Source: an uncultured Bacteroidota bacterium (GTDB taxonomy: Bacteria; Bacteroidota; Bacteroidia; Flavobacteriales; Schleiferiaceae). From it: a DNA stretch of 64,000 nucleotides. The stretch lies in assembly GCA_913057235.1 (NCBI GenBank), contig CAJXNI010000005.1, forward strand, positions 62,001 through 126,000. Reading direction: 5' to 3'. The notes under the pieces were generated by a model. The model had not been told where the DNA came from and did not search any database. It was given only the letters and a program-made list of their open reading frames with translations. A program made the translations under genes and the position numbers. Below, piece by piece: positions 21,694 to 58,557 of the stretch. The stretch's first letter is position 1; each line of letters starts with the position of its first letter.

Positions 21694-21934
21694 TTATCCC
21701 AAAAGTTGGACAGCTGAAAACAACAAATTAACAAGAGGCTTTGAGTTTGCGAATTTCGTGGAAGCCTTCGGGTTTTTAACCCAGGTGGCTCTAGAGGCCG
21801 AAAAGGCCCAGCATCATCCCGAAATTAGTAATGTGTATAACAAGGTTTCCATAAGCCTTACCACCCACGATGCGGGCAATACTATTACCGAAAAGGATGA
21901 AAAGCTAGCCGCTGCAATTAACAATCTTTTATAG
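21686..21934 (+). CDS. phhB: 4a-hydroxytetrahydrobiopterin dehydratase (pterin carbinolamine dehydratase)
   Basis: 82 residues, slightly short for the family (about 95-110) at the N-terminus. The key motif is [20 protein letters not shown] followed by [15 protein letters not shown], with the catalytic His pair. It recycles the pterin cofactor used by aromatic amino-acid hydroxylases. Some family members also act as transcription cofactors. It is last in the acpP-pyk run and overlaps convergent pheS by 6 bases. Confidence 0.88.
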
Positions 21935-24702: not shown

Positions 24703-25879
24703 CCTTAATTCCCGGCAAAAGTTTTCCTTCCAGGTACTCCAGCATTGCGCCTCCCCCGGTGCTCACGTAGCTTACCTGATCGGCCAATCCGAACTTTTTA
24801 ATAGCCGCTACAGAGTCACCTCCTCCTACCAAACTAAACGCACCCTTTTGAGTGGCCTCCGCAATAAAATGGGCCATCTCTCTGGTGCCCTTCGCAAAAT
24901 TGTCAAACTCAAAAACCCCCAAAGGACCATTCCAAAGAATCACCTTAGCTTCTGAAACCACACTTTTCAGGTGAGCCAGCGTTTCATCTCCCGCGTCTAG
25001 ACCCATCCAACCATCTTGAATAGCGTTGGCTTGAAAAACCTTTTGCTTAGCCTCATTCCTGAAATCATCTCCCGCTAAAACATCTTGCGGAAGGTGCAGC
25101 GTTACACCCAGCTCCTGCGCTTTCTGTTCAACACTGGCCGCCATCTCTAAATAGTCTTCTTCTACCAGAGAATTACCAATTAAGCCACCTTTCGCTTTTA
25201 TAAAAGTAAAGGCCATGCCCCCGCCAATTATTAGGTGATCAACCTTTGATAGCAGGTTTTCTAAAATGCCAATCTTAGATGATACTTTGGCTCCGCCAAC
25301 GATGGCTACCACGGGCTTTTCATTGCTATTCACCACCTTATCCACATTCAATATTTCTGCCTCCATCACCAAGCCAAAGGCCTTATTGGCAGGAAAGAAC
25401 TCGGCTATAATTGCGGTGCTTGCGTGGGCGCGATGTGCGGTTCCAAAGGCATCGTTTACATAGAAATCACCCAGCTTTGCCAGTGATTTAGCAAACTCCC
25501 GGTCACCTTGGGTCTCTTCAATATGATAGCGTAAGTTTTCCAACAATAAAATTTCATTGGCTTTTAAGCTATTCGAAAGTTTAATGGCCTCTTCGCCTAT
25601 GCAATTTGCAGAGAACAACACTTTGGCACCGGTAAGCCGTTCCAAATGACCTACCAGTTGTGTTAGGCTTAATTCCGACTTCCGCTCCCCTTTTGGTCTG
25701 CCCAAATGCGACATTAAAACCGGCCTTCCGCCTTGAGCTAAAATGGCTTTAATTGTTTTTAAGTGGGCCTGCATGCGGCTATCATCCGTTATTTCTCCCT
25801 GATCATTCAAAGGCACGTTAAAATCTACCCGCGTGAGTACACGCAAACCCTCAAAATTTATATCCTTGATGCTTTTCAT
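24689..25879 (-). CDS. pgk: phosphoglycerate kinase
   Basis: 396 residues. It has RVDFNVPLNDQGEITDDSR at the start, HLGRPKGERKSELSL for 3-phosphoglycerate binding, AHASTAIIAEFFP, the hinge-side IVGGAKVSSKIGILENLL, ILWNGPLGVFEFDNFAKGT and VGGGDSVAAIKKFG for nucleotide binding. It transfers phosphate from 1,3-bisphosphoglycerate to ADP in glycolysis. It is divergent from holB. Confidence 0.97.
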   Translation of the reverse strand: MKSIKDINFEGLRVLTRVDFNVPLNDQGEITDDSRMQAHLKTIKAILAQGGRPVLMSHLGRPKGERKSELSLTQLVGHLERLTGAKVLFSANCIGEEAIKLSNSLKANEILLLENLRYHIEETQGDREFAKSLAKLGDFYVNDAFGTAHRAHASTAIIAEFFPANKAFGLVMEAEILNVDKVVNSNEKPVVAIVGGAKVSSKIGILENLLSKVDHLIIGGGMAFTFIKAKGGLIGNSLVEEDYLEMAASVEQKAQELGVTLHLPQDVLAGDDFRNEAKQKVFQANAIQDGWMGLDAGDETLAHLKSVVSEAKVILWNGPLGVFEFDNFAKGTREMAHFIAEATQKGAFSLVGGGDSVAAIKKFGLADQVSYVSTGGGAMLEYLEGKLLPGIKAIQS

Positions 25880-27943: not shown

Positions 27944-27958
27944 GTTTCACGTGGAACT
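27943..27958. promoter_or_regulatory. parS: parS-like ParB-binding site 1
   Basis: TGTTTCACGTGGAACT; the reverse strand reads AGTTCCACGTGAAACA, a 15 of 16 match to the bacterial parS consensus TGTTnCACGTGAAACA. It lies in the 13-base gap between mnmG and the methyltransferase, touching the first base of one start codon and two bases of the mnmG stop codon. ParB loads at such sites to segregate the chromosome and recruit SMC. Confidence 0.85.
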
Positions 27959-29828
27959 ATCTACCCATGTATACTAGCAAAACCGAAATGTCGGCTGGAC
28001 TCACCCCGCTAATGGCCTTAGCTTCCTTTATGTTAGAAGGTTTTAACTTGCCTAGTTTTTCCCTCGCCTCTAAGCTCATACTGGCAAGCTTACTATAATC
28101 CAAGCCCTTAGGAATGCTTAGAGATTCTAACCGGCTTAACTTGCTCGCATTTTCTTTCTCTTTGCCGATATAGCCCGCATATTTCAAGGCGATTTCCGCT
28201 TGCTCTAAATTCTCTGCTTTGATATTGTGCTTATCAACAACATCCTTAAGCGGCTTGTAATGCATAAATGACCTCACACCTAACTGTGGCCTGGCCAGTA
28301 ATTTGGCAATTTTTAATTTCTGATTTACTTGGCTTAAACCATGCCTCTTCAATACTGCATTTGCCTCATCTCTCTCTATAGAGTGATTGGTAAACCAATT
28401 TTGTAAAAACTCTGTCTTAGACTGTTTTTCTTGGAAATCTTTCCAACGACCTTCATCAATTAAACCAATCTCGTAACCTTTTGGGGTTAAGCGTTCATCC
28501 GCATTATCTTGCCTGAGAATAATTCTATACTCCGCTCGGCTCGTAAACATTCTATAGGGCTCCTTTGTGCCTTTTTGGATCAAGTCATCTATCAGAACGC
28601 CTATATAAGCCTCACTTCTATCCAGTATCACTGCCTCAAGCTCATCTATACTTCGGGCCGCGTTTATACCAGCCATTAAGCCTTGGCAGGCCGCCTCTTC
28701 ATACCCGGTGGTACCATTTATCTGACCGGCAAAGTACAGCCCATCAACAAGCCTTGTTTCTAATGAGTGAAACAATTGGGTTGGTGGAAAGTAATCATAT
28801 TCAATTGCATATCCAGGTCTAAATATTTTGGCGTTCTCAAAACCTGGTATTAAACGAAGTGCCCTTGCTTGCACCTCTTCTGGAAGACTCGTACTAAAAC
28901 CATTAACGTAAACCTCCACTGTTTCCCAACCCTCTGGCTCTACAAATATTTGATGCCTGTTTTTATGGGCAAACCGATTGATTTTCTCCTCTACACTTGG
29001 GCAATAGCGCGGCCCGGTACTATCAATCGCCCCATTGAACATGGGGCTTCTGTCAAAGCCCTCTTTTAAGGCCTCATGCACCTGCTCGTTGGTATAGGTT
29101 ATGTAACAACTTCTTTGTTTTATGAGTGTTGTTGATTCACTGCTGTATGAAAACTTTCCTGGATACTCATCACCCCGTTGCTCCTCCATTTTGGAGTAAT
29201 CCAAACTTCTGCCATCTACACGAGGCGGTGTACCTGTTTTCATCCGTCCCGCTTCAAAGCCTAAATCCACCAAACGCTCGGTAATCCCTTTGGACGCTCT
29301 CTCCCCCGAACGACCACCACCAAACTGTTTATCACCGATATGGATTAACCCATTTAAGAAAGTCCCGTTAGTTAGTATCACTTTCCGCGCGGGAATCTTC
29401 ACGCCCATAGACGTGCTAACACCCACCACTTTTCCTTTTTCAACTTCCAGGTCCGTCACCATATCCTGAAAAAAGTCAAGCTTAGGTGTCCGCTCTAAAG
29501 TTAAGCGCATTTCTTCTGCATAACGCATTCTATCACTTTGAACTCTTGGCGACCACATGGCCGGTCCCTTGCTCCGGTTTAGCATCCTAAACTGGATGGC
29601 TGTCTTGTCCGCTACCAAAGCCGAGACCCCTCCTAAAGCATCAATCTCACGTAATATTTGTCCTTTAGCGATACCTCCCATGGCTGGATTACATGACATC
29701 TGCGCTATGGTCTGCAAATTCATTGTGACCAACAACGTTGTTTTTCCTAGACGAGCTGCAGCCGAGGCAGCTTCCACACCGGCATGCCCTCCGCCAACCA
29801 CCACCACATCATAATCTACATTTAGCAT
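27957..29828 (-). CDS. mnmG: tRNA uridine-5-carboxymethylaminomethyl modification enzyme MnmG (GidA)
   Basis: 623 residues from ATG 29828. The FAD site is VVVVGGGHAGVEAASAAARLG, followed by NPAMGGIAKGQILREIDALGG. The cysteine-bearing AACQGLMAGINAA and the MFTSRAEYRI motif are present, and the C-terminal helical domain ending ISVLLVYMGR is complete. With MnmE it modifies U34 of several tRNAs. A longer frame starting at TTG 29867 is rejected because its extra residues run through a parS site and into ybeY. mnmG (gidA) is often close to the replication origin, which fits the parS sites at both its ends. Confidence 0.96.
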   Translation of the reverse strand: MLNVDYDVVVVGGGHAGVEAASAAARLGKTTLLVTMNLQTIAQMSCNPAMGGIAKGQILREIDALGGVSALVADKTAIQFRMLNRSKGPAMWSPRVQSDRMRYAEEMRLTLERTPKLDFFQDMVTDLEVEKGKVVGVSTSMGVKIPARKVILTNGTFLNGLIHIGDKQFGGGRSGERASKGITERLVDLGFEAGRMKTGTPPRVDGRSLDYSKMEEQRGDEYPGKFSYSSESTTLIKQRSCYITYTNEQVHEALKEGFDRSPMFNGAIDSTGPRYCPSVEEKINRFAHKNRHQIFVEPEGWETVEVYVNGFSTSLPEEVQARALRLIPGFENAKIFRPGYAIEYDYFPPTQLFHSLETRLVDGLYFAGQINGTTGYEEAACQGLMAGINAARSIDELEAVILDRSEAYIGVLIDDLIQKGTKEPYRMFTSRAEYRIILRQDNADERLTPKGYEIGLIDEGRWKDFQEKQSKTEFLQNWFTNHSIERDEANAVLKRHGLSQVNQKLKIAKLLARPQLGVRSFMHYKPLKDVVDKHNIKAENLEQAEIALKYAGYIGKEKENASKLSRLESLSIPKGLDYSKLASMSLEAREKLGKLKPSNIKEAKAISGVSPADISVLLVYMGR

Positions 29829-29834
29829 ATCACA

Positions 29835-29850
29835 AGTTTCACGTGGAACA
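29835..29850. promoter_or_regulatory. parS: parS-like ParB-binding site 2
   Basis: AGTTTCACGTGGAACA; the reverse strand reads TGTTCCACGTGAAACT, 15 of 16 to TGTTnCACGTGAAACA. It fills most of the 28-base gap between ybeY and mnmG, ending 6 bases before the mnmG ATG. With site 1 it brackets mnmG at a distance of 1.9 kb. Confidence 0.85.
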
Positions 29851-29856
29851 ATATAT

Positions 29857-30285
29857 TTAGCTGACAATCAACTTTTTGGGGCGCAAAAGTAAGCATTTAT
29901 CTTCTTCTCTCCGCATAATACTTTTCTCACTCTGAGTTCTATCATTATATCCTATGCAATGCAACAGTGCGTGCACCATTACCCTTGACAACTCCTCTTC
30001 TTTTGAGATTCCTAATTCCCCAGCCTGTTCCTGAATTCGTTCCCAACCTAAAAGCACTTCAACAATAAGTATGTTAGCTTCACTATAATCAAAGGTGATT
30101 ACATCTGTGGGATAATCATGGCCTAAGAACTCTAGGTTTGCCTCTTGGATCTCTTGATTATTATAAAAAACGAAAGACGCTTCCTTGACTAAACACTTTC
30201 GCGCTTCAACAACATCCGTTAGCCAACCCTGCAATTCTTCACGGTTATCTCTAACCCAATTTGGTGCCTGCAAAAACTTAATCAC
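29857..30285 (-). CDS. ybeY: endoribonuclease YbeY
   Basis: 142 residues. It has FVFYNNQEIQEANLEFLGHD, the TDVITFDY strand and the metal motif MVHALLHCIGYNDRT. In the classic motif HxxxHxxxxxH the third His is replaced by Asp or shifted here (GYND), which I believe is usual in Bacteroidota. The stretch before it (ILIVEVLLGWERIQ) is more divergent than the usual GDIxIS. YbeY matures 16S rRNA and helps ribosome quality control. It overlaps the DUF4175 gene by 8 bases. Confidence 0.87.
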   Translation of the reverse strand: MIKFLQAPNWVRDNREELQGWLTDVVEARKCLVKEASFVFYNNQEIQEANLEFLGHDYPTDVITFDYSEANILIVEVLLGWERIQEQAGELGISKEEELSRVMVHALLHCIGYNDRTQSEKSIMRREEDKCLLLRPKKLIVS

Positions 30286-35643: not shown

Positions 35644-36426
35644 TTACTTTTTGGCCTCTTTGTAAGGCACCGTCTCCAAAATATAGCGCATAGCCTCTAA
35701 GCGCGCTTTGGTTTTGCGATTGGCTTTTAGCACAACCCAAGGGTTTTTAGACGTATGCGTTTTTTCAAACATGGCCTCTTTATAGCGTGTATACTCATCC
35801 CACAACTCCTGCGCCTTTTCGTCAACCGGTGACATTTTCCAGCGCTTCAAAGGGTTATTTTTAATATCCTCAAAACGCCTGGCCTGCTCTGATTTTGAAA
35901 TAGAGAAGTAAAACTTGATCAGGATGATGCCATCGCGCGTAAGCATTTCTTCAAAAGGCACTACCTCCTGCATGAAGTAATTATACTCTTCTTGAGTGCA
36001 AAAGCCATTAACGGGTTCCACCACCGCCCGGTTGTACCAGCTGCGGTCAAAAAAAACAATTTCACCCGCATTGGGCAACTTATTAATGTAGCGTTGAAAA
36101 TACCACTGATGCCGTTCTGTGGCATTAGGCTTGGGCAAAGCTATTACCCTGTAGTTACGCGGGTTCAAGTGGTGATTAATCCTGCGGATGGCGCCTCCTT
36201 TGCCTGCTGCGTCTCTCCCTTCAAAAAGAATGCATACCCTCTTGTTGTTTTCAATAACCCACTTTTGGAGCTTAATAAGCTGCACCTGCAGTTTTTCAAT
36301 TTCCTTTTCATACTTCACGTAGCGTAACACTTTGGCAGGATCAGGCTTGTTCTGGCTTACCAAAAGTTTTACCGCCAAATTTGTATTCAGTAGTTCTAAT
36401 TCTTTCTTAGAAAAATTATAAGCCAT
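35644..36426 (-). CDS. ppk2: polyphosphate kinase 2 family protein, second copy
   Basis: 260 residues from ATG 36426 (MAYNFSKKE). The Walker A motif is FEGRDAAGKGGAIRR, and the lid and base-binding segments LNPRNYRVIALPKP, QWYFQRYINKLP and IVFFDRSWYNRAVVEPV are all present. PPK2 uses polyphosphate to phosphorylate nucleotides, or the reverse. The in-frame ATG at 36441 would overlap the upstream copy and is less likely. It begins one base after the stop of its paralogue, an evident tandem duplication. Confidence 0.92.
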   Translation of the reverse strand: MAYNFSKKELELLNTNLAVKLLVSQNKPDPAKVLRYVKYEKEIEKLQVQLIKLQKWVIENNKRVCILFEGRDAAGKGGAIRRINHHLNPRNYRVIALPKPNATERHQWYFQRYINKLPNAGEIVFFDRSWYNRAVVEPVNGFCTQEEYNYFMQEVVPFEEMLTRDGIILIKFYFSISKSEQARRFEDIKNNPLKRWKMSPVDEKAQELWDEYTRYKEAMFEKTHTSKNPWVVLKANRKTKARLEAMRYILETVPYKEAKK

Positions 36427-36427
36427 A

Positions 36428-37327
36428 TTAATCCAAATCATAAATGGCCCGGTGAAACTTCATTACCACATTCGGGTCGGCCAGTACCCGGGTGGCAGCT
36501 TTTTCTTTACCTGCATACTCAAACTGTGAGAGCACGTAGCGCATGCTCTCAAGGCGCGCCTGTTTTTTTACATTGGTTTTAATAATTACCCAAGGACTAA
36601 AAGGCGTATGCGTTCGGCTGAACATTTGTTCCTTGTAATAAGTGTATTTTTCCCAGAGCTTTTGGCCCTCGCGGTCTACCGGGCTCAACTTCCATTGCTT
36701 GAGCGGATTTTTAGCTCGTTCTTTAAAGCGTCTCTCCTGCTCGGTCTTATCAATGCTAAACCAAAATTTTATCACTTTTAAGCCGTCTTCAAAAAGCATG
36801 TGCTCAAACTCCGAAACCTGCCGCATGAATTGCTGGTACTGCTCCAGGGTGCAAAAATCCATTACCGGCTCTACCACAGCACGGTTGTACCAGCTACGGT
36901 CAAAAAAAACAATTTCACCCGGGTTGGGTAATTCTTTAATGTAACGCCTAAAATACCACTGCCCTCGTTCCTTCTCGGTGGGTTTAGATAAAGCCACCAC
37001 CCGCATACTGCGGGGGTTTAGGTGCTCTACAAAACGTTTAATAGCACCCCCTTTGCCAGCCGCATCCCGGCCTTCAAAAATTACTGCTACTCGCTGCAGG
37101 GTCTTACTCACATGGCTTTGCAGCTTCACCAATTCTACCTGTAGCTTACGCAACTGATCTTCATAGTGCAGATTAAAGTCTACCTTTTCCAAAGAACGCC
37201 CTTTAGCTTCCAGTAAGGTCCGTAAGCTTTGCGCAGGGTCTAATTGATTAAAGTCCTGGTTGGTGAGGTGCTGTTGTTTTTTCTTGTTTTTGTTTCCTGC
37301 GTCATCCATAATGATAAACTCTCCCAT
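36428..37327 (-). CDS. ppk2: polyphosphate kinase 2 family protein, first copy
   Basis: 299 residues. It has the same core as its neighbour: FEGRDAAGKGGAIKRF (Walker A), LNPRSMRVVALSKP, QWYFRRYIKELP and IVFFDRSWYNRAVVEPVMDF. It carries an extra N-terminal arm (Lys/Gln-rich, residues 1-30) and an extra C-terminal stretch. The start could be Met1 or Met7 (MDDAGNKNK). The two copies may differ in substrate, as PPK2 classes prefer NDPs or NMPs. It follows the SPFH gene by 6 bases. Confidence 0.92.
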   Translation of the reverse strand: MGEFIIMDDAGNKNKKKQQHLTNQDFNQLDPAQSLRTLLEAKGRSLEKVDFNLHYEDQLRKLQVELVKLQSHVSKTLQRVAVIFEGRDAAGKGGAIKRFVEHLNPRSMRVVALSKPTEKERGQWYFRRYIKELPNPGEIVFFDRSWYNRAVVEPVMDFCTLEQYQQFMRQVSEFEHMLFEDGLKVIKFWFSIDKTEQERRFKERAKNPLKQWKLSPVDREGQKLWEKYTYYKEQMFSRTHTPFSPWVIIKTNVKKQARLESMRYVLSQFEYAGKEKAATRVLADPNVVMKFHRAIYDLD

Positions 37328-53743: not shown

Positions 53744-55363
53744 TTAATTACTGTTTTGCCGTTCGGCCTCTTCTCGTGCGCGTTCCCGTTTCATTTCACG
53801 CTCATAGCGTCTGCCATACTTAATTTTTTCTCCGTTGTACTTCACTTCTTCACCTTCATCATACTCTATGGTTATAATACGTTCACCACTTTCGGTGAAA
53901 AACTCCCAGAGCCCGTCTCGCTTGTCTCCCAAGTATTGGCCTCGTCTGCGCACTTGCCCGTTATCGTAATAAAAAACAAAGTCTCCATTTTTAAGACCAC
54001 TTTCATAGCGTCCCTCAAATCTCAATTGATTATTACTTAGATAATAAGAACGCCATACCCCCGTGCGCTGGCCTTCAAAATAAGAGCCTTCCTCGCGGTG
54101 ATCATTTATTTGAAAGAACCAATCGCCCTCGCGGTAACCATCCACATAAGAGCCCTCTGCAATTACCGCTCCGGTGTCATTGTATTCAATAGACTTTCCA
54201 TCTTCTCGGCCGTTAAAATAATTTTCTACCCGCCAAAGTTCTTCATTCTCATGGTACCAAATCCATTCTCCATCAGGTTCACCTCTCAAGTAGGAACCCA
54301 CCTGTTCCAGCTTTTGCTCCTCGGGATAAAAGTATTTCCATTCTCCTACTTTTAAATCATCGCGGTAACGCCCACTAGCCTTAAGGTTACCGCTGGGGTA
54401 AAAGTGCTTCCAAGGGCCTTGTTTTCGACCTTGCTCATCAATTATACCTTCGTATAAGACCTTGCCATCCTCATATATCTTACTACTAACAACATTTCCT
54501 TCATCGTCATACTCCCGGTGAACGCCTACCGGCTGCCCGTTACGATAAGCCCCCTTGCTAGCCAGCTTTCCGGTTTTAGGGTTAAGGGTCCGTTTTATTT
54601 CAACTTTACTGGACTCCTTGGCCCCCTCTTGTAGAACACCCATCACCCATTTTTCCACCCGTATGAGGTTGCCATTAGACTGATAATATTTCCAATAGCC
54701 ATTTTTAAGATCGTTCACATAGGGCCCTTCAACCTTGATTACGCCATTGGGGTAAAACTCCATCCAAAGCCCTTGCTTCTGATTTTGTTGGTCAATTTGA
54801 TTAATATCTTGCTTGCGCACCAATTGGTTATTTTTGTAGGTGAGCAGGGTAATAATTCGTTGATCTTCCTGAGCATAAACGAAGCCGGTACCTGAAGATT
54901 TGCCTTTTTGGTACGGTACCTCTTTTTTGAGTTTGCCTGAAGGGTAAAAGTATTGCTCGGTGCCTTCAACCAGATCATTTTGGTAGGGCGTTATTTTTAC
55001 CAGGTTACCCTCCTTAAAACTACGGCTGGGTCCTTCTTTTATACCAAGCTTGTAGGTGATCTCAGCTGTTTTGAGACCTTCTCTGTTATAAAAAACCCAA
55101 AGACTGTCTAGCTTAAAGTTTCTGCGGTTCCCCTCGGTTTTTAAATTTCCATTGCGCCAGTAACTCTTCCAGTAACCGTTGGGCTGGCCATTTACTAGGT
55201 TGCCTTCACTACTTTTAGCACCCCCCTCATAGTAATACACCTTGTAGGTTACGCTATCACCTCCGTTCTGCGAAAGCGAAAGTAGGGGAATGGTAAGAAA
55301 CAGCAGAAGAGCCCACCTTTTTAATACTATACCTATATATCTTTTTAAATTATTTAAAACCAA
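53744..55363 (-). CDS. secreted MORN/YwqK-repeat protein
   Basis: 539 residues with a signal peptide (LLLFLTIPLLSLSQ). The body is about 20 tandem copies of a 22-24 residue motif such as GYWKSYWRNGNLKTEGN, GLWMEFYPNGVIKVEGPYVN and GEWKYFYPEEQKLEQVGSY, the MORN/YwqK type repeat. It ends in an Arg/Glu-rich tail. Often annotated as YwqK-family antitoxin, but the repeats say nothing of toxin action; probably an envelope or surface protein. Its start borders the candidate origin region. Confidence 0.85.
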   Translation of the reverse strand: MVLNNLKRYIGIVLKRWALLLFLTIPLLSLSQNGGDSVTYKVYYYEGGAKSSEGNLVNGQPNGYWKSYWRNGNLKTEGNRRNFKLDSLWVFYNREGLKTAEITYKLGIKEGPSRSFKEGNLVKITPYQNDLVEGTEQYFYPSGKLKKEVPYQKGKSSGTGFVYAQEDQRIITLLTYKNNQLVRKQDINQIDQQNQKQGLWMEFYPNGVIKVEGPYVNDLKNGYWKYYQSNGNLIRVEKWVMGVLQEGAKESSKVEIKRTLNPKTGKLASKGAYRNGQPVGVHREYDDEGNVVSSKIYEDGKVLYEGIIDEQGRKQGPWKHFYPSGNLKASGRYRDDLKVGEWKYFYPEEQKLEQVGSYLRGEPDGEWIWYHENEELWRVENYFNGREDGKSIEYNDTGAVIAEGSYVDGYREGDWFFQINDHREEGSYFEGQRTGVWRSYYLSNNQLRFEGRYESGLKNGDFVFYYDNGQVRRRGQYLGDKRDGLWEFFTESGERIITIEYDEGEEVKYNGEKIKYGRRYEREMKRERAREEAERQNSN

Positions 55364-55437
55364 TGCTGTTTTTGCTAATCTGTTAATTGGTTGTAAAACT
55401 ATTGAAAGGGTTGCTTGCTTTTTTCATTCGCCTGCTT

Positions 55438-55446
55438 TTATTCACA
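55438..55446 (+). promoter_or_regulatory. DnaA box
   Basis: TTATTCACA matches the DnaA-box consensus TTATnCACA exactly. It lies within the gene-free AT-rich gap. Confidence 0.55.
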
Positions 55447-55588
55447 GTGTATTAACAACTGTGTACGGCTTAAGCGCTTCTAAACTAAATAGTAAACGCT
55501 AAAAATGCACAATTGTTAAGAACCGATAACAACAAGACGTTTTTTAAAAGTTATAACAGGAGAAGTGGTTAATAAGATTAGCCTTGGC

Positions 55589-55597
55589 TGTGCATAA
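55589..55597 (-). promoter_or_regulatory. DnaA box
   Basis: The minus strand reads TTATGCACA, an exact TTATnCACA match, in the opposite orientation to the box at 55438 and 143 bases from it. Confidence 0.55.
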
Positions 55598-55704
55598 ATA
55601 CTCTAAAGCTTTTGATAATCTCAGACCCATATTCAAGCAATTTTTCAGAGAGATTTTAAGCTCTAAAAAGTCAAGCATAAATTTCAAGAACTAATTAACA
55701 GCCT

Positions 55705-55712
55705 TACCTTTG
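55705..55712 (+). promoter_or_regulatory. promoter box of rpiB
   Basis: TACCTTTG matches TAnnTTTG. It lies 77 bases upstream of the rpiB ATG, giving a long AU-rich leader. Confidence 0.4.
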
Positions 55713-55789
55713 ATAGAGATTTAACCTTGTTAATTGTAAAATATTGACTTAAAGTTAGTTTAACCATTTATTAATATTTATTAACAGCT

Positions 55790-56218
55790 ATGCAAATTGC
55801 AATAGGCGGAGATCACGCAGCGGTGGCTTTAAAGCCAAAGCTGATTTCATTTTTAGAAGAGCGTGGGCACGAGGTTCTTAACTTTGGTACCGATACGGCC
55901 GATAGTGTGGATTACCCTGATTTTGGTCACCCCGTTGCGGAAGCCATAACCCAAGGTACTTCTAAATTGGGTATTGTTATTTGTGGCAGCGGTAATGGGA
56001 TAAATATGACCGTTAACAAGCATAAAGGCATACGCTCTGCTTTGTGCTGGAATACGGAGCTGGCTGCGTTGGCCCGTCAGCATAACAATGCCAATGTTTT
56101 GGCACTGCCGGCCCGTTTTATCAGTCAAGAAGAAGCTTTAGGTATAGTAGCTTCTTTTTTAGACCATGAATTTGAAGGGGGTAGGCATCAAAGGCGGGTA
56201 GACAAAATTAACGGTTAG
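55790..56218 (+). CDS. rpiB: ribose-5-phosphate isomerase B
   Basis: 142 residues. It opens MQIAIGGDHAAVALKPKL, the RpiB/LacAB start, with DSVDYPDFGHPVAEAI and the catalytic Cys in IVICGSGNGINMTVNKHKGI. NNANVLALPARFIS then completes the active site. It interconverts ribose 5-phosphate and ribulose 5-phosphate in the pentose phosphate pathway. It overlaps the convergent lipoprotein gene by 4 bases. Confidence 0.95.
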   Translation: MQIAIGGDHAAVALKPKLISFLEERGHEVLNFGTDTADSVDYPDFGHPVAEAITQGTSKLGIVICGSGNGINMTVNKHKGIRSALCWNTELAALARQHNNANVLALPARFISQEEALGIVASFLDHEFEGGRHQRRVDKING

Positions 56219-57114
56219 GGAGTCAATACTTTTTCCAGCTCCTGGTTTAAACGCTCCAGATTTTTTCCCTGCATTTTTCCATCGCCTTTAAGGCTAAGTA
56301 CGCGGTTATGCGCATTGCCTTGCATCTTATTTAGTAATTGCAAATAATTTAGGTTGCTGGCTCGGTTTAGTGGATAGTCTTCAAACAATATCCAAAAGTT
56401 GGCTCCTGGTAAATGGGTATAAACTTCACTAAGCGGCTCTTGATTAAAGCTTAACCAGTACTTGTTGGTTTGCATACCCAAAATGATGTTGTTAGGGTCA
56501 GTTCTCTTAACACGCCTTATGGCTAATTCTAGTTGTGGTAAACTATCTAACTTTAAATATTCCTGTATGAAACTGCGCTCAGCCGGGTTAAGGGAATCTT
56601 TCTCGGTAAGTTTTTCCAGCTCCAGTAAAGGACTAAATGGCCCGCCATTTACATAAATCACGCTATCGGCTTTAAGCTGTACGGCTACAGTAGGAGCTAG
56701 ATAGGCGCCTTCTTCTACACCTAAAACAACCAAATTATTAAACTGCGCTTTGCTGCTGCTTTTTAAATACCGGGCGGTGCTTATAATTTCACTGGCTCTT
56801 TGGCTGGCAAAATTCATTTCTCGTAAAAGGTAAAACTCACCCTCCTTAGGGGCGGTAATTTCTACAATTTCATAACCGGCCTTTAATAACTTCTCAAAAA
56901 CCGGCAGCTGCTTTACAGAAAGGCTGTCAAGTGCAGGAGGTAAATACAACAGCGTTTTGGTAACAGGCTTGTCAAGCTTGTAAATAGTGTAGGGTATGGG
57001 AGCGTATTGTCCTTTAAAATTATGCTGGGCGGTGGTTGTTTGCAGCTGAGGCTTGCACGCCCAAAACAGGGCACAAACAATTAGCAGGGAGAGCCTATTA
57101 ATAAAATTGGTCAT
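56215..57114 (-). CDS. lipoprotein with alpha/beta-hydrolase-like fold lacking the nucleophile
   Basis: 299 residues with a lipoprotein signal (Cys20, ALFWACKPQ). TLLYLPPALDSLS and the helix after it, then NLVVLGVEEGAYLAPTVA, follow the alpha/beta-hydrolase plan. At the nucleophile elbow the expected GxSxG reads GVEEG, so Ser is replaced by Glu. Later pieces (SVIYVNGGPF, FWILFEDYPL) fit core strands. It is probably not an active serine hydrolase. The family is assigned by layout only. Confidence 0.6.
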   Translation of the reverse strand: MTNFINRLSLLIVCALFWACKPQLQTTTAQHNFKGQYAPIPYTIYKLDKPVTKTLLYLPPALDSLSVKQLPVFEKLLKAGYEIVEITAPKEGEFYLLREMNFASQRASEIISTARYLKSSSKAQFNNLVVLGVEEGAYLAPTVAVQLKADSVIYVNGGPFSPLLELEKLTEKDSLNPAERSFIQEYLKLDSLPQLELAIRRVKRTDPNNIILGMQTNKYWLSFNQEPLSEVYTHLPGANFWILFEDYPLNRASNLNYLQLLNKMQGNAHNRVLSLKGDGKMQGKNLERLNQELEKVLTP

Positions 57115-57126
57115 ATTAGCAATGTT

Positions 57127-58557
57127 TTGATTAACCCCATAGACCTAATCATATTTATTGTGTACCTCCTGGCCATGCTGGGGGTGGGTTTCTACTTTAT
57201 GCGTAGAAACAAAGATATTGATGATTACTATGTGGGCGGCCGTGGAATGAGTAGCTACCACATAGGACTTAGTGTAGTAGCCACAGATGTAGGGGGCGGC
57301 TTTTCCATAGGCTTGGGTGGTTTAGGTTTTGCTATCGGTCTAGCCGGAAGTTGGATGCTCTTTACCGGTCTGCTGGGCGCCTGGTTATCAGCTTACTTTT
57401 TAATTCCTCGGGTTTTTAAACTGATTAGAAAGCACAAACTTTACACCTTCCCTGAAATATTTCTGTACCTCTTTAATTCCCGCGTGGCACTTTTTGCAGG
57501 TATTGTTTCAGCCATTGGCTACATAGGTTTTACCAGTGCCCAAATTTTAGCAGGTGCTAAATTGGCCACGGCCACCTTCCCTTCATTAGACTTGCAAACG
57601 GCCGTACTGATTATGGGCGTAACAGCCGTAATTTATACAGTATTAGGGGGCTTAAAGGCGGTAATTTATACCGATACAGTGCAATGGATTCTACTCATGG
57701 GCGGCTTGGTATTTATTGGCATACCCTTAGCCTATTTTGAGGTTGGTGGTTATGCCACCATCAAAGAAACGTTGGATCCGGGCTTTTTGAATTTCTTTAA
57801 TTTACCCTGGCATCAGGTGGTGAATTGGGCCATAACCATTATCCCCATCTGGTTTATAGGTATGACTTTGTATCAAAGAATTTACGCCAGCCGCGATGAA
57901 AAAACAGCTCGTAAAGCATGGTTTATTGCGGGTATTTTTGAGTGGCCTATTATGGCCTTTATGGGCGTGTTGCTGGGCTTGTTTGCCCGGGTGGCTTTAC
58001 AGCAAGGAATGTTTGAAAGCATTGGCTACACCTCTTTATCAGGCATAGATGCTGAAATGGGCCTGCCTGTTTTATTACGCACGGTGTTGCCGGTTGGCCT
58101 TATGGGCCTTATGATGTCGGCTTACTTTTCAGCTATTATGAGCACAGCTGATAGCTGCCTTATGGCGGCCAGCGGCAATTTGGTGACCGATATTCTAGCA
58201 CGCTTTCTCCCTATTTCTGAAGAGAAATTATTGCGCAATTCGCAAATTGCCACCTTTATAATTGGCGCCCTGGCTTTGCTTTTGGCAACGGTTATGACCA
58301 ACGTTTTAGACCTTATGTTGCTATCCTATTCTTTTATGGTTTCAGGCTTGTTTGTACCCTTGTTGGCCGCGTTGTTCTTTAAAAAGAAAGATCCCCTGGC
58401 GGCTATGGTAGCCATCATAGCGGGAGGAGGCACCACCCTAACACTGGAGATTCTTAAGCTTAAAGAACTCATAAGCATGCCATTGCAATTAGACCCAAAC
58501 CTGTATGGAATTAGCGCTTCCTTAATCTGCTATCTACTAATTTCAAATAGAAAATGA
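57127..58557 (+). CDS. sodium:solute symporter family protein
   Basis: 476 residues with about 13 membrane helices. The N-terminal YYVGGRGMSSYHIGLSVVAT, GGFSIGLGGLGFAIGLAG and the later MMSAYFSAIMSTADSCLMAA, with the Na+-site Ser/Thr region, are SSS signatures. The substrate is not evident. The start is TTG 57127; the next Met (residue 17) would cut the first helix. Only 12 bases separate this start from the divergent lipoprotein start. Confidence 0.9.
   Translation: MINPIDLIIFIVYLLAMLGVGFYFMRRNKDIDDYYVGGRGMSSYHIGLSVVATDVGGGFSIGLGGLGFAIGLAGSWMLFTGLLGAWLSAYFLIPRVFKLIRKHKLYTFPEIFLYLFNSRVALFAGIVSAIGYIGFTSAQILAGAKLATATFPSLDLQTAVLIMGVTAVIYTVLGGLKAVIYTDTVQWILLMGGLVFIGIPLAYFEVGGYATIKETLDPGFLNFFNLPWHQVVNWAITIIPIWFIGMTLYQRIYASRDEKTARKAWFIAGIFEWPIMAFMGVLLGLFARVALQQGMFESIGYTSLSGIDAEMGLPVLLRTVLPVGLMGLMMSAYFSAIMSTADSCLMAASGNLVTDILARFLPISEEKLLRNSQIATFIIGALALLLATVMTNVLDLMLLSYSFMVSGLFVPLLAALFFKKKDPLAAMVAIIAGGGTTLTLEILKLKELISMPLQLDPNLYGISASLICYLLISNRK

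Follow-up and report, generated by a model that had tools for sequence, protein, structure and literature searches.

A probable chromosomal replication origin between ywqK and rpiB in an uncultured flavobacterial genome

Introduction

In the Bacillus subtilis origin, a basal unwinding system was described that consists of a DnaA box with adjoining DnaA-trios (PMC6669920). Origins that lie at a distance from dnaA are in themselves not new, and in a survey with Ori-Finder, oriC both adjoined dnaA and lay close to the skew switch in only 342 of 568 chromosomes (PMC2275245). Ori-Finder also placed oriC near mnmG in two Flavobacteriaceae genomes (PMC11278836, PMC12843772), and for Mariniflexile a mismatch between dnaA and GC skew was remarked upon (PMC11278836). 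Our literature search returned no paper naming rpiB, oriC and Flavobacteri- together.

Here, we analysed a 64,000-nucleotide stretch of DNA (the window, C5:62001–126000) from a draft genome of 2.83 Mb in 49 contigs, in which a first-pass annotation had placed a candidate chromosomal origin between a YwqK-repeat gene and rpiB. Conserved DnaA boxes, the GC-skew minimum of relatives, linkage to parS and a DnaA-trio module in relatives supported this placement, and 55333–55789 is very probably the chromosomal replication origin of the host. As a kind of locus this is an ordinary oriC, and its interest lies in its exact placement, the trio module of the family and the distance to dnaA and parB. Genomes of relatives are given by label where needed; G003, G013, G016 and G025 belong to the host's Flavobacteriales family and G155 to another family.

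Results

The ywqK/rpiB gap is AT-rich and contains the only close pair of exact DnaA boxes in the genome

The two genes that flank the gap are transcribed divergently away from it and the gap is rich in AT (69.7%, compared with 55.9% for the window), both as previously claimed.

53744–55363, minus strand: ywqK, gene for a YwqK/MORN_2-repeat protein, flanking the putative origin
55364–55789: divergent ywqK/rpiB intergenic region, candidate oriC core by box density, family conservation and the skew minimum of relatives beside it
55790–56218, plus strand: rpiB, ribose-5-phosphate isomerase B (TIGR01120, above cut-off)

The start codon of ywqK is uncertain, as aligned relatives begin ~30 bp inside the listed ORF. 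At this start (55320–55363) most aligned relatives have an ATG, which is missing here at the aligned position, and the listed ORF begins at an upstream TTG that falls within the putative unwinding element described below. No RNA family match was found in 54000–57500 (Rfam). Elsewhere in the window, two PPK2-type polyphosphate kinase genes lie adjacent and in tandem at 35644–37327.

Both exact boxes reported for the gap, TTATTCACA at 55438–55446 (plus strand) and TTATGCACA at 55589–55597 (minus strand), were present, as was the weaker box AAATGCACA at 55503–55511. The window held four exact TTATNCACA boxes relative to a chance expectation of 2.4 (sd 1.6). The same count was reached in 25 of 100 shuffles, so that, taken alone, it is weak and not significant as evidence for an origin. 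The earlier tally had listed one further box, inside pgk, which stood (at 25338); the total was nevertheless four rather than three, as a box at 21832–21840 (minus strand), between two larger ORFs, had been missed. Genome-wide, exact boxes numbered 75 vs 72 in the reversed control. The 55438/55589 pair, with a spacing of 151 bp, was unique in the genome, as no other two exact boxes lay within 200 bp of each other; chance alone predicts ~0.3 such pairs (by arithmetic). Counting one-mismatch boxes, no other region of the window or of contig C5 was as dense in DnaA boxes as the gap, and in G016 the gap was the top box cluster in the 120 kb around rpiB.

The boxes are conserved in close relatives

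The divergent ywqK–gap–rpiB layout recurred in the host's family, often with a box at approximately −350 from the rpiB start. Conservation of the boxes in close relatives, to which the first-pass annotation had pointed as a check, was borne out, with 30 exact boxes in the 450 bp upstream of rpiB, distributed over 21 of 29 family loci, compared to 2 in the reversed control. The rate of exact boxes upstream of rpiB was ~32-fold that of the rest of those 29 loci. In a wider sample of 76 loci, one-mismatch boxes numbered 211 vs 91 in the control, a weaker enrichment than in the family. Alignment with relatives revealed additional conserved weak boxes and two recurring short elements, ACAATTGTTA and AAAGTCAAG; the box at 55589 was without an exact counterpart in aligned relatives. 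The elements of the gap were as follows.

55438–55446, plus strand: exact DnaA box, kept at approximately −350 from the rpiB start in relatives
55503–55518, plus strand: AAATGCACAATTGTTA, the weak box plus the conserved ACAATTGTTA; CTATTCACAATTGTT or AATTAACAATTGTT in relatives
55567–55575, minus strand: GGTTAATAA, weak DnaA-box-like site, conserved in the family
55589–55597, minus strand: DnaA box, exact here and weaker in aligned relatives (GGTGGATAAA or GGTGAAAA)
55667–55675, plus strand: AAAGTCAAG, family-specific element and not a DnaA box, found in part of the host's family at the fixed position −117 to −121 relative to the start of rpiB and absent from the wider sample
55692–55700, plus strand: TAATTAACA, weak DnaA-box-like site, from the alignment
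55778–55786, plus strand: TTATTAACA, one mismatch relative to the DnaA box, conserved and adjoining the rpiB start

Relatives carry a clear DnaA-trio module, of which the host has a degenerate form

A search for DnaA-trio-like repeats, as the first-pass annotation had suggested, gave a mixed outcome, namely a clear module in relatives and a degenerate one in the host genome. The sites at and beside the ywqK end of the gap were as follows.

55333–55363: putative duplex-unwinding element, 87% AT, proposed from its position beside the trios and overlapping the uncertain 5' end of ywqK
55364–55378, plus strand: DnaA-trio array TGC TGT TTT TGC TAA, degenerate here, by alignment-anchored count
55381–55389, minus strand: trio-adjoining DnaA-box-like site TGTTAATTG; relatives often have TGTTNATAA, and one has TGTGGATAA, the inverted TTATCCACA

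Across 18 aligned gaps (the host and 17 relatives), T was found at −5, −8, −11, −14 and −17 in 89–100% of sequences and was mostly followed by A or G, and the array was followed by GC or CC and then by the inverted DnaA-like box. The relative L003, for example, carries TAG TAG TAA TAA TAG. A strict TAN-repeat regular expression matched just a minority of the relatives, as the trio nearest the box frequently reads TGN. It was replaced by the alignment-anchored count, which was defined after the alignment had been inspected and is therefore descriptive. The host trios retained the phase of T (5 of 5) and just one of the five had the central A, which suggests that the module is weakened in the host genome or that its DnaA accepts other trios.

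The cumulative GC skew of relatives reaches its minimum beside the gap

In the complete genomes G013, G016 and G025, the coarse whole-chromosome skew changed sign at or beside rpiB. Base-resolution cumulative G−C, computed over 120–160 kb around rpiB, gave local minima at 1,839,822 in G013 and 2,637,062 in G016 (both 555 bp upstream of the rpiB ATG), at 2,580,820 in G025 (621 bp upstream) and at 2,235,556 in G003 (518 bp upstream). These four minima fell 60–100 bp inside ywqK, beyond the ywqK end of the gap; as coding bias depresses the local skew at a divergent gene pair, this base-level agreement overstates the precision. Outside these genomes, the minimum of G155 was at 2,531,286 (244 bp upstream of rpiB), those of G287 and G414 were 1.8 and 9 kb away, and G125 exhibited no clear minimum in local cumulative skew around rpiB. 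The skew check suggested in the first-pass annotation thus came out beside the gap in four family genomes; for the host draft, its contig breaks restricted the skew to a local comparison, and within the window 39186 (−999) and 55500 (−983) were nearly tied, which is not decisive by itself.

parS is linked to rpiB, and dnaA and parB are distant in relatives

The parS sites reported at 26–28 kb from the gap were found as claimed, one at each end of mnmG (gidA), a gene classically linked to the origin.

27944–27957: parS site 1, parS-like GTTTCACGTGGAAC, at the mnmG 3' end
29836–29849: parS site 2, parS-like GTTTCACGTGGAAC, at the mnmG 5' end
27957–29867, minus strand: mnmG (gidA), with parS at both ends (TIGR00136, 836 bits)

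The parS motif GTTNCACGTGNAAC occurred in just 2 or 3 copies per family genome and always as one cluster (8 of 8 genomes searched), and this sole cluster lay 8–43 kb from rpiB in all eight, on the ywqK side in the complete ones. Among 26 complete Flavobacteriales genomes, which are related and hence non-independent and for most of which lengths were rounded, the rpiB–parS distance was 10–55 kb and the dnaA–parS distance was 19–47% of the chromosome (median 35%), never close. In many Flavobacteriales the parS pair was spaced by ~1.9–2.0 kb, and some members of one genus carried 8–9 parS copies, mostly clustered at one end.

In the host, dnaA was intact on another contig than the gap (C11:78788–80182). 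In G013, G016 and G025, both dnaA and parB were near the skew maximum, to within ~0.3 Mb (sampled resolution), and their distances from parS were 40–47% and 43–46% (the latter by arithmetic) of the chromosome, respectively. In relatives, dnaA and parB lie across the chromosome from the probable origin, which is an unusual arrangement.

Discussion

Among the features by which oriC is recognised, the gap has a DnaA-box cluster in an AT-rich intergenic region, a position and sequence conserved in relatives, parS nearby and, in G003, G013, G016, G025 and G155, a location at the cumulative GC-skew minimum; dnaA is not beside it, being on C11 in the host and near the skew maximum in relatives.

An origin next to dnaA, as in many bacteria, would make the rpiB gap something else, and the intact gene with three exact boxes within 2.5 kb could be read in that way. 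However, all three boxes are inside coding sequences, the gap upstream of dnaA is without an exact box, and in three relatives dnaA is close to the skew maximum rather than the minimum and nearly opposite parS. A dnaA-adjacent origin was rejected on the intragenic position of its boxes and is extremely improbable. A second placement, at mnmG and parS (25–30 kb of the window), with the rpiB gap as a secondary DnaA site, would fit a classical marker gene that has parS at both ends. It would also agree with the Ori-Finder calls near mnmG in Flavobacteriaceae (PMC11278836, PMC12843772). The skew disfavours it, as four family genomes have their minimum at rpiB and the cumulative skew has risen by at least 600 units at parS, and the best box score near mnmG in the window is the single exact box in pgk; we consider this placement very unlikely.

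The gap might instead be a double promoter regulated by DnaA or a DnaA-titration site (datA/DARS-like), rather than an origin. It must carry the promoters of two divergent genes, and DnaA boxes occur in promoters too. This reading leaves the skew minimum, the linkage to parS and the module of trios, GC and box unexplained, and there is scarcely any likelihood that it is correct.

With the gap as the probable origin, we infer from its elements DnaA binding, unwinding, a direction of loading and actual initiation at this site. DnaA would occupy the strong boxes (55438, 55589) together with the weak ones, and an ATP-DnaA filament would load leftward from the box at 55381–55389 onto the trio strand at 55364–55378, opening the AT-rich stretch beside ywqK. 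Helicase entry would then launch two forks, which would move out across ywqK and across rpiB, respectively. Segregation of the newly copied origins would fall to ParB loaded at the pair of parS sites flanking mnmG, ~27 kb leftward.

If correct, these results narrow the origin down to ~1 kb in a group that has received little study. The gap upstream of rpiB could serve as the marker for rotating flavobacterial genomes instead of the dnaA start, and it offers a testable target for origin plasmids. A further question is why the gene for the initiator, joined in the host's family by parB, should be remote from the origin on which their products act. One speculative and rather doubtful answer is that selection, and not chance rearrangement, keeps dnaA (and, in the host's family, parB) towards the terminus while oriC and parS stay together near rpiB/mnmG, both in this family and to some extent in Flavobacteriales at large. 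If true, replication would reach dnaA late, and the copy number of the gene could set when initiation next occurs.

Among known systems, the E. coli oriC is similar to the gap in not being beside dnaA and in its array of strong and weak boxes. The neighbouring genes differ, and dnaA of E. coli is still within the origin region, unlike that of the host. The gap resembles the basal unwinding system of B. subtilis oriC (DnaA-box#6/7 beside the DnaA-trios; PMC6669920) in the order of a DnaA box, a short spacer and in-phase trios beside an AT-rich stretch, with more boxes distally; it differs in that it is not beside dnaA, the trio-proximal boxes are weaker (TGTTNATAA in relatives) and the host trios are degenerate. 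The Flavobacteriaceae origins called near mnmG by Ori-Finder lie in the same neighbourhood as the gap, from which mnmG is 26–28 kb away, and one of these reports remarks on a dnaA position at odds with the skew (PMC11278836). Relative to those calls (PMC11278836, PMC12843772), the skew minimum and the conserved boxes found here favour the ywqK/rpiB gap over mnmG.
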